A program made the position numbers and the translations under genes. DNA of 64,000 nucleotides from Reichenbachiella agarivorans (GTDB lineage Bacteria > Bacteroidota > Bacteroidia > Cytophagales > Cyclobacteriaceae): positions 2,511,501-2,575,500 of the forward strand of contig NZ_CP106679.1 in the NCBI RefSeq assembly GCF_025502585.1, read 5' to 3'. How positions within the stretch are numbered: position 1 is the stretch's first letter; each line of letters starts with the position of its first letter. The notes beneath the pieces are model-generated. The model made no database searches, had not been told where the DNA came from, and worked only from the letters and a program-made list of their open reading frames with translations. Positions 52,790 to 56,007 of this stretch are shown piece after piece.

Positions 52790-53230
52790 TCAATTAGGCA
52801 GTTGATTGGTCAACATCCAGTAGAGACTGATGTCTTTGGTAGCGCGCGTAAAATCTTCAAAAGAAATAGGTTTGACCACATAACTATTTGCTCCGTTTGA
52901 GTAGCATTCTTTGAGATCTACAATTTCCTCTGATGAAGTCATTATTACTATAGGAATATTTTTGATGTCAGAACTGCTTTTGATAGCTTTTAATATTTCA
53001 TGACCGCTTACTTTGGGTAGCTTTAGGTCTAAAAGTACCACCTTGGGATTGATGGATAGATCTCGTTCTCTGTACTTGTTCCTGGCAAAGAAGAAATCTA
53101 GTGCTTCTTCACCATCTTTGAGCCAAAGAATGTTGTTTTGTACTTTCATTGATTTCAAAGCCCTCATGGTCAATTCTGCATCATCTGGATTGTCCTCAAC
53201 TAAAACGATTTCTATATTGTCGTAGTTCAT
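52790..53230 (-). CDS. Single-domain response regulator (Rcp1-like)
   Basis: A 146-residue receiver domain: acidic pocket VEDNPDDAE, phospho-acceptor aspartate in VVLLDLKLPKVSGHE, conserved Thr/Ser in VIMTSSEE and Lys in VVKPISFEDF. The length and the NPDDAEL pattern match Rcp1-type regulators that receive phosphate from phytochrome-class kinases. It follows the ethylene-receptor-like kinase with 8 nt between the stop and this start, so the two form a pair. No output domain is present. Confidence 0.93.
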   Translation of the reverse strand: MNYDNIEIVLVEDNPDDAELTMRALKSMKVQNNILWLKDGEEALDFFFARNKYRERDLSINPKVVLLDLKLPKVSGHEILKAIKSSSDIKNIPIVIMTSSEEIVDLKECYSNGANSYVVKPISFEDFTRATKDISLYWMLTNQLPN

Positions 53231-53238
53231 TAGTAGTA

Positions 53239-54390
53239 TTATTTTGGTAATGCAATTGTAAATTTAGCGCCCTTGTTTATCACGCCTTTGGCAGTGATCG
53301 TGCCATGGTGTCGATCTATTATTTTTTTACATAACGACAAACCTACACCGGTTCCTTCAAATTCGGAATCGCTGTGTAGTCTTTGAAACACTTCGTATAG
53401 TTTGTTTTCATATTGCTGGTCAAAGCCTATTCCGTTATCTTCAATATGAATGATGTTGTCTTTTTTATCACTTTCTGACCAAATCTTGATTTTCGGTTCT
53501 GCCACATTCGAACTGTATTTGACGGCATTGGAGATCAGGTTTTCAAACACTTGTTTGATCATGTCCTTGTCTCCTTTTATGCTTCCCAAAGTGCCTATTT
53601 CAAATATACTTACATCCAACTTAAAATAATTATCCAGCAAAATGTTTTTGACCAGCATGTCCAATGAAAATATCTCTATGCTTTCAGTACTTCTGCTCAT
53701 TCGGCTAAATGACAATAGGTCATCAATAAGCTTTCCCATTTTATTGCTGTTTCTGATGATACGTTTGAGATAATTGGTCTCTTGCTCGTCTAGTTTTGAT
53801 CCTACGTCCTCTAATAGTGCGGAAGAATAGCCTTGCATGGCGCGCAAGGGTGCTCTCAAATCATGTGATACCGAATAACTGAATGATTCTAGTTCTTGGT
53901 TGGTCTCTGATAGACTGAGGGTTCGTTTTGCTATTTCTTTTTCGAGTAGTTCTTTGGATTCTAGGATTCGTAGGTAGTCGGCTTCTGTTTTCATGCTCAG
54001 CGCGATCGGTATGGCGCGAACCATGGCAAGTGCAGTAAAGAGCGAAATCACCGCGGTTAAGAACTTTACAAATCCACTCAAGCGATACACAGGCTCCCAA
54101 AACAGCACCACATCGATCAAATGCGTAAAGCCACAGGCCAATATGAATACCCCAAAGAGAATAAAAAATCGTCCAAATGGGATTTTCTTATACTTCCAGT
54201 AAAAGAATATCAGAAGCATTGGAATAGCAGAATAGGATAGAAAGATGGTGAGGTCGGATAGGATGTAGAACCAACCTTCGGTTTCTGACCATTGTCCACA
54301 ACCCCATCTGGCTGGCCATGCAGAAGTATCTAGGAGGTTGGAAAAGTAATCTGAGACCGAAGACACCTGCACTACAGGTTGTGCGCTCAT
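53239..54390 (-). CDS. Ethylene-receptor-like sensor histidine kinase
   Basis: A 383-residue kinase from ATG 54390. Residues 40-130 hold three helices with SDLTIFLSYSAIP (D46, Y53, I56, P57) and LACGFTHLID (C86, H90). In plant ETR1 the matching positions are D25, Y32, I35, P36, C65 and H69, and the last two bind the copper cofactor. After a coiled coil come the H-box SYSVSHDLRAPLRAM (H176), N-box FENLISNAVKYSS, G1 IEDNGIGFD and G2 GTGVGLSL. No GAF or PAS domain intervenes. The response regulator follows. The frame is open upstream to a TTG at 54453; ATG 54390 is preferred. Confidence 0.9.
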   Translation of the reverse strand: MSAQPVVQVSSVSDYFSNLLDTSAWPARWGCGQWSETEGWFYILSDLTIFLSYSAIPMLLIFFYWKYKKIPFGRFFILFGVFILACGFTHLIDVVLFWEPVYRLSGFVKFLTAVISLFTALAMVRAIPIALSMKTEADYLRILESKELLEKEIAKRTLSLSETNQELESFSYSVSHDLRAPLRAMQGYSSALLEDVGSKLDEQETNYLKRIIRNSNKMGKLIDDLLSFSRMSRSTESIEIFSLDMLVKNILLDNYFKLDVSIFEIGTLGSIKGDKDMIKQVFENLISNAVKYSSNVAEPKIKIWSESDKKDNIIHIEDNGIGFDQQYENKLYEVFQRLHSDSEFEGTGVGLSLCKKIIDRHHGTITAKGVINKGAKFTIALPK

Positions 54391-55749: not shown

Positions 55750-56007
55750 ATGAGCAGATTAATGATAGCTGTATTGTTGATAGGGGTCCTGTCACAATGC
55801 AAAGAGGATTGTACGCAAAGTGATAAGTGTAGTTTAGCACCAGACGCTGGGTTTTGCTATGCATACATCCCGAAGTATTATTACGACAAAGAAGAAAAAC
55901 AATGCAAGTCGTTCATTTATGGTGGCTGTGGTGGAGAGGTGCCATTTGAGACCTTGGAAGCATGCGAAAACGGATGCTATTGTGATAGACAAGTAGAAGA
56001 GATGTAA
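55750..56007 (+). CDS. Kunitz/BPTI-domain lipoprotein
   Basis: An 85-residue protein with lipobox LLIGVLSQC (C17) and a single BPTI/Kunitz domain. Six cysteines C27, C36, C52, C60, C72, C76 reproduce the BPTI spacing (9-16-8-13-4) except for one residue fewer in the fourth gap. The core YYYDKEEKQCKSFIYGGCGG matches the family. The P1 position after the second Cys is Y37, suggesting a chymotrypsin-like target in place of trypsin. It would be a surface-anchored serine protease inhibitor. Eukaryotic-type domains of this kind are rare in bacteria. Confidence 0.9.
   Translation: MSRLMIAVLLIGVLSQCKEDCTQSDKCSLAPDAGFCYAYIPKYYYDKEEKQCKSFIYGGCGGEVPFETLEACENGCYCDRQVEEM

Follow-up and report, generated by a model that had tools for sequence, protein, structure and literature searches.

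A putative ethylene-receptor-type histidine kinase of Reichenbachiella agarivorans and the different settings of its sensor domain in Bacteroidota

Reichenbachiella agarivorans encodes a membrane-bound histidine kinase that, judged from its sequence, is probably a two-component, Cu(I)-dependent receptor of the ethylene type. The protein was found in a stretch of 64,000 nucleotides (hereafter the window), and it shares with the plant receptor ETR1 a sensor of three helices, the seven ethylene-binding residues, and a histidine kinase following the sensor. The sensor domain (ETR1_N) is common among the Bacteroidota relatives of this genome. We start from the window kinase and its binding site, compare both with known receptors and with relatives from the same family, and afterward move on to the two-gene receptors, the fusions with a copper ATPase, and the phage proteins in which the same domain occurs. 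These last three forms, which were not reported among the literature searched, are in our view of greater interest than the window kinase itself.

The kinase and its response regulator

The kinase gene lies on a contig of 4.47 Mb, together with the gene of a separate response regulator. Their features are listed below, with coordinates in the window.

53239..54390 (-), ethylene-receptor-type sensor histidine kinase, 383 aa (open reading frame, Pfam, predicted model)
54298..54300 (-), C31, an additional cysteine near the N-terminus, present in 76 of 91 rows, bacterial as well as viral
54253..54255 (-), D46 (ETR1 D25) in helix 1, with Y53, I56, and P57 later in the same helix (alignment)
54121..54135 (-), C86-x3-H90 (ETR1 C65 and H69) in helix 2, with I83 (ETR1 I62) just before (alignment)
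53995..54276 (-), ETR1_N three-helix membrane sensor domain, residues 39-132 (PF25487, 107.6 bits, cut-off 27)
53698..53889 (-), HisKA dimerisation/phosphoacceptor domain, residues 168-231 (PF00512, 59.3 bits)
53245..53574 (-), HATPase_c ATP-binding domain, residues 273-382 (PF02518, 83.6 bits)
52790..53230 (-), single-domain response regulator, 146 aa, 8 nt downstream of the kinase (PF00072, Response_reg alone, 67.3 bits)

The protein is composed of ETR1_N, a helical linker, HisKA, and HATPase_c. Translation starts at the ATG at 54390, and an in-frame TTG upstream (54453) would give a protein of 404 aa. The ETR1_N match has an E-value of 4e-31, and a search of the whole R. agarivorans genome returned one such domain, at 111.2 bits and above the family cut-off. 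Scanning a collection of genome contigs with the whole window kinase yielded four kinase relatives, and no ETR1_N was found in the DNA available for them. Neither GAF nor PAS was matched in the 383-aa protein at E 0.001, in line with the preliminary description of this DNA, which had remarked on the missing GAF domain. We take a GAF domain after the sensor to be the mark of a canonical plant or SynEtr1-type receptor, and the window kinase does without it. ETR1 carries both a GAF domain and a fused receiver, whereas the window kinase has neither and is accompanied by a separate response regulator instead.

The kinase motifs are intact. H176, N288, and G320 are invariant across 16 aligned kinases, and H176 is the likely phosphoacceptor. 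In the regulator, D68, T98, and K120 can be recognized by eye in the translation as the phosphorylation-site residues. With HisKA, HATPase_c, a phosphoacceptor histidine, and a receiver partner, all parts of a two-component system are present, and the pairing with a receiver protein that had been claimed earlier is borne out by the 146-aa protein next door. A gene of the same regulator cluster directly adjoins 22 of 48 other fused ETR1_N kinases, a count covering 60 stretches besides the window, with 11 further Bacteroidota ETR1_N stretches left out.

In a predicted model, the sensor consists of three helices (36-66, 73-98, and 102-132), and a long helix (136-199) runs from the linker into HisKA. 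The model was built from only 12 aligned rows and deserves modest confidence (mean pLDDT 77.6, pTM 0.47), with block means of 81 to 95 pLDDT over sensor residues 41-130. No template for the sensor domain was found among the sequences of solved structures, 56 of which match the window kinase without covering anything before residue 125. The same holds for the 50 listed of the 340 Foldseek matches to the model (E 0.001 or better), which are histidine-kinase entries given without aligned ranges.

As for copper, the genome encodes one Cu(I)-ATPase over the cut-off (584.9 bits vs 397), unlinked to the kinase, and no copper gene was matched among the scanned neighbours of the window kinase. Gene order was considered as evidence of gain or loss and set aside: an FAA hydrolase (75-78%) is retained throughout the rest of the genus in the draw, but the order of genes around it differs from that of the window. 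The radical SAM gene of the window has no close copy in these four genomes either.

Two further observations concern the surroundings and the genome at large. An 85-aa open reading frame at 55750-56007 (+) of the window contains a Kunitz/BPTI protease-inhibitor domain (53 bits, cut-off 21), a domain that is mostly found in animals. The Por secretion tail has 63 matches in the R. agarivorans genome, which supports its assignment to the Bacteroidota, although 2 of 14 control genomes match too.

The ethylene-binding site

When aligned with Arabidopsis ETR1, the window kinase presents D46, Y53, I56, P57, I83, C86, and H90 at the positions of D25, Y32, I35, P36, I62, C65, and H69, seven out of seven, within an alignment in which 42 of 107 residues are identical. 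The preliminary description had listed six of these residues at ETR1 spacing; the alignment agrees and adds I83. Its central proposal, an ethylene-receptor-like kinase retaining the copper ligands, finds support in the ETR1_N score and in the placement of C86 and H90 on C65 and H69. Like the preliminary description, we take Y32 to be the seventh ethylene-binding residue of ETR1. Seven residues are needed for ethylene binding according to two papers (PMC11819568, PMC6682694). D25, C65, and H69 are named among them in the former, and I35, P36, I62, C65, and H69 in a third (PMC6586836).

C86 and H90 are the presumed Cu(I) ligands. In the model, D46, Y53, I56, and P57 fall within helix 36-66 and I83, C86, and H90 within helix 73-98, which places the aspartate in helix 1 and the cysteine and histidine in helix 2. 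A cysteine and histidine that do not share the helix position had been named beforehand as the outcome speaking against the proposal; both lie in helix 73-98. ETR1 S98 and K91 likewise have counterparts in the window kinase. The N-terminal cysteines C4 and C6 of ETR1, on the other hand, differ in spacing from C31 of the window kinase, and neither is matched at the same spacing. C31 is a possible disulphide or metal contact.

The site is well kept across the family. Of 82 aligned rows, 80 have H69, 78 have I62, and 70 have D25; Y32, I35, P36, and C65 each occur in 79. All of these positions except D25 rank within the nine most conserved columns (ninth place being tied with the S98 column), a ranking in which conserved positions are favoured by the gathering of rows through similarity to the family. 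Among 91 rows, the complete set of seven is present in the window kinase. It also occurs in 44 of the 56 kinases from Bacteroidota, in 11 of the 12 split sensors, in 9 of the 10 plasmid rows from other phyla, and in 3 of the 9 viral rows, but in none of the 3 CopA fusions. The pair of cysteine and histidine is retained more widely, namely in 52 of 56 Bacteroidota kinases and in every split (12), plasmid (10), CopA-fusion (3), and viral (9) row.

Some rows have drifted. The D25 position is occupied by N in nine and by E in two of the Bacteroidota kinase and CopA-fusion rows, 4 of the 56 Bacteroidota kinase rows are without Cys or His, and two rows (L132 and L133) are without most of the seven residues. 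Given this drift, selection may have acted on something other than ethylene binding in parts of the family. One further ETR1_N kinase (L073; G558:C12:281246-293527) has an in-frame TGA within its sensor domain and is either a decaying copy or the result of a sequencing error.

Comparison with known receptors

Ethylene binding has been reported for cyanobacterial and Azospirillum receptors (PMC6682694, PMC11819568), and putative ethylene receptors are described from other bacterial phyla, plant-associated proteobacteria included (PMC11819568). The window sensor shares 44 of 114 residues (39%) with a protein encoded on a plasmid of Azospirillum brasilense Sp7 (L141), and both possess the seven residues. 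This 525-aa open reading frame fits AzoEtr1, having the same length as published. AzoEtr1 is reported to bind ethylene, to contain a PAS domain, and to have a response regulator gene beside it (PMC11819568). In contrast to this plasmid-borne protein of 525 aa with its PAS domain, the window kinase lacks PAS and is encoded on the 4.47-Mb contig. The cyanobacterial SynEtr1 and GeiEtr1/2 resemble it as prokaryotic ETR1_N kinases, and the seven residues are reported to be conserved in GeiEtr1/2 (PMC6682694). Three cyanobacterial plasmid rows (L142-L144) fall outside the tree group of the window kinase.

Distribution and phylogeny

ETR1_N is present in 48 of 196 genomes drawn from the window's family, spread over 26 of 84 genera, and in 21 of 395 genomes drawn from the phylum (own genome included in both draws); none of 14 control genomes contains it. 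The preliminary description had hinted that such a kinase would be a rarity in this group, and the family counts contradict that hint. Within the family draw, the genus is represented by five genomes, two of which have the domain, one as the fused kinase of the window and the other (G175) in a two-gene form. Surroundings were fetched for all but 5 of 55 ETR1_N places, these five being G091:C1:7016424, G132, G093, G015, and G031:C64.

Phylogeny had been suggested as a check, and it places the window kinase with Bacteroidota of its own family. The tree, built from 89 rows and 116 columns without L073 (whose frame contains a stop), L132, and L133, comes from a brief search, and SH-aLRT values are its sole measure of support. 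The window kinase groups with seven larger kinases of the family (L074, L083, L086, L088, L089, L091, and L097; support 91, a value not starred in the tree). A recent transfer from cyanobacteria or plants was considered and is unsupported, as the window kinase groups with Bacteroidota of its own family in a tree of few columns with weak deep forks and ETR1 on a long branch.

The seven nearest kinases reach up to 60% identity, and six of them have a regulator next door. They measure 671-950 aa and contain PAS in the four that were scanned (L074, L083, L088, and L089), unlike the window kinase. In 6 of the 7 loci, the regulator is followed by a gene of a receiver-PAS-kinase cluster (one member scanned, in L074), and in 3 of the 7 then by a gene of a LuxR-type regulator cluster (one member scanned), for example at L074:9088-11521(+). 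Neither of these adjoins the window locus. Judging from the downstream genes of the nearest relatives, the window regulator may be a single link in a relay whose subsequent members are absent from the locus or located elsewhere.

Receptors divided over two genes

In 12 of the 61 ETR1_N proteins in the fetched stretches (window included), ETR1_N stands alone in a small protein of 143-179 aa (L055-L066, e.g., L058:5914-7966; L060 ends at the contig end). A gene of a histidine-kinase cluster comes directly after it in all 12 loci, followed in 10 by a gene of a response-regulator cluster; Pfam checks covered the kinases of L055, L056, and L058 and the regulators of L055 and L058. Nine of the 12 partner kinases were examined, and these start with a markedly hydrophobic region some 110 residues long, in which about four helices can be seen by eye; no Pfam domain was found in this part of the two that were scanned. 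The 12 split sensors form one clade (support 95). From the gene order, we infer that in the two-gene form sensor and kinase have become separate subunits of one receptor.

Fusions with a copper ATPase

In three of four genomes of one Bacteroidota genus, ETR1_N is fused to a copper ATPase.

L067:3400-7998(+), CopA-ETR1_N fusion
L068:4291-8889(-), CopA-ETR1_N fusion
L130:1-3078(-), CopA-ETR1_N fusion, ending at the contig end

In G375 and G560, a single frame of 1532 aa combines HMA, E1-E2 ATPase, hydrolase, ETR1_N (868-963), PAS, HisKA, and HATPase_c. G646 has the matching N-terminal 1026 aa up to the contig end, and since this part is 63% identical to the first fusion, a single recurring assembly error does not account for the arrangement. 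Against the Cu-ATPase model TIGR01511 (cut-off 397), the fused ATPase scores 560.6 bits in G375 and G560 and 532.7 in G646, and the CxxC, CPC, DKTGT, and GDGxND motifs are intact in all three. Beside the fusion, G375 and G560 each encode a separate, unfused Cu-ATPase that exceeds this threshold (618 and 617 bits); the other candidates of G646 stay below it, the best being a partial match of 385 bits. A blastp search with the fused ATPase for a Cu-ATPase beside other ETR1_N loci matched only two fused proteins in 61 stretches, and nothing was found when viral sequences were scanned with the CopA-ETR1_N junction. The seven residues of the fusions read NYIPICH, so that D25 is replaced by N.

In Arabidopsis, ETR1 is a direct interaction partner of the Cu-ATPase RAN1, which has been proposed as its main copper source and would hand the metal over by contact (PMC6656775). 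The window genome also has a Cu(I)-ATPase, but the two genes are unlinked. By analogy, the fusion looks like the pair of RAN1 and ETR1 in a single molecule, although it may also have a copper-sensing role. It offers a single natural protein in which to ask how a receptor acquires its copper.

ETR1_N in viruses and phages

Eight ETR1_N loci (L153-L160) emerged when viral contigs were scanned twice; seven encode short proteins without a kinase (114-269 aa), and one (L154) encodes a kinase. Viral genes were called mechanically, and longer frames overlap the ETR1_N frame in L156, L157, L158, and L160, where the domain scores 55 to 80 bits. Ten viral neighbours were scanned, of which three match phage structural families, namely portal (L153), head-closure (L159), and tail (L156). 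The others gave nothing or an unknown family, so neighbours leave the viral origin of those loci unconfirmed.

Searching annotated phages with L157 returned eight records, all from the cultured Maribacter forsetii phages Molly and Colly (best E 7e-5, 35% over half the query). Eight records of the phage collection were matched with the L157, L158, and L153 queries, and none with a 157-aa piece of the window protein or with the viral L159.

L161:5890-6759 (+), stand-alone ETR1_N of the Molly/Colly phages, directly upstream of an amidase endolysin
L162:5890-6759 (+), stand-alone ETR1_N of the Molly/Colly phages, directly upstream of an amidase endolysin

The Molly_1 protein (289 aa, annotated as hypothetical) matches ETR1_N with 60.9 bits. 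It keeps Cys65 and His69, but D25 and P36 are replaced by N and S, respectively. The three viral rows with all seven residues include the kinase L154. For the phage proteins, sensing and a holin-like function next to the endolysin are equally conceivable, and it is worth asking what use viruses make of such a domain, given its stand-alone occurrence in phages that infect a member of the Bacteroidota.

Our searches for literature on ethylene receptors together with Bacteroidota or Cytophaga, a Cu-ATPase fusion, or phages gave no title or abstract opening on these forms among the matches listed. The word 'ethylene' is absent from one phage paper (PMC8776804), as are 'bacteria' and 'fused' from the main text of another article (PMC12586476). 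An earlier mention of Bacteroidota ethylene receptors in the literature is nevertheless quite possible.

How the receptor may work, and what else it could be

The account that follows goes beyond what is shown for the window system (sequence, domains, the seven residues, predicted helix placement, gene arrangement, and a Cu(I)-ATPase gene in the genome) as regards the dimer, the copper and where it comes from, ethylene as the ligand, the transfer of phosphate, and the resulting response. The three-helix domain would dimerise in the inner membrane and hold Cu(I) between C86 and H90, with D46 assisting. A small olefin, most likely ethylene, would bind the copper from within the membrane, shift the helices, and via helix 136-199 alter the autophosphorylation of H176. 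The phosphate would then move to D68 of the adjoining regulator, which, because it has no output domain, may act through protein contact or hand the phosphate on. Copper would be supplied by the ordinary Cu(I)-ATPase of the cell.

We favour an ethylene-type receptor on account of the 107.6-bit domain match, the complete set of seven residues, the likeness to AzoEtr1, the conserved columns, the intact kinase motifs, the adjoining regulator, the Cu(I)-ATPase in the genome, the fusions, and the parallel with RAN1. Counted against it are the drift in other rows, the unmatched C4 and C6, and the occurrence of ETR1_N in only two of the five genomes of the genus.

The most serious competitor, to which we give appreciably less credence, keeps the fold and the Cu(I) site and changes the signal to Cu(I) supply, redox state, or another Cu(I) ligand, for example a larger alkene or CO. 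The ATPase fusions with ETR1_N, PAS, and kinase in three genomes would be expected of a copper sensor too, and C65 and H69 persist where D25 or P36 has changed, without exception in the split, fused, and viral rows. The window kinase, however, retains all seven residues, D25, Y32, I35, and P36 among them, it has no copper gene matched among its scanned neighbours, and cyanobacterial and Azospirillum receptors are reported to bind ethylene (PMC6682694, PMC11819568). It is improbable that the sensor binds no ligand and serves as a mere membrane anchor or dimeriser for the kinase: such decay does occur in the family, as L132 and L133 illustrate, but six of the seven positions stand among the nine most conserved columns and the window kinase keeps every one. 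Chance resemblance in an unrelated membrane kinase, conceivable in that a small set of residues dominates membrane helices in general, can be ruled out for practical purposes by the domain score (E = 4e-31), the 42 of 107 residues shared with ETR1, the failure of the spacing pattern to arise when the N-terminal 135 aa were shuffled 200,000 times, and its restriction to ETR1_N loci among 3137 open frames of 80 or more codons (L115, printed as outside, is itself an ETR1_N match).

Significance

A module familiar from plant hormone receptors and from the small number of bacteria studied so far proves to be common in Bacteroidota genomes. Going one step further, we tentatively suggest that ETR1_N might be a general copper-loaded gas-sensing module of this phylum. 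It would be used as a fused kinase, as a separate membrane subunit driving a membrane kinase encoded by another gene, joined in a single chain to a Cu(I)-ATPase of its own, and as a stand-alone phage protein that reads or scavenges the same signal or belongs to the lysis machinery beside the endolysin. If so, the domain would not be a plant or cyanobacterial speciality, and copper loading and receptor would be one molecule in the fusion. With ETR1_N this common in one family, ethylene or another Cu(I) ligand may be a routine signal there.
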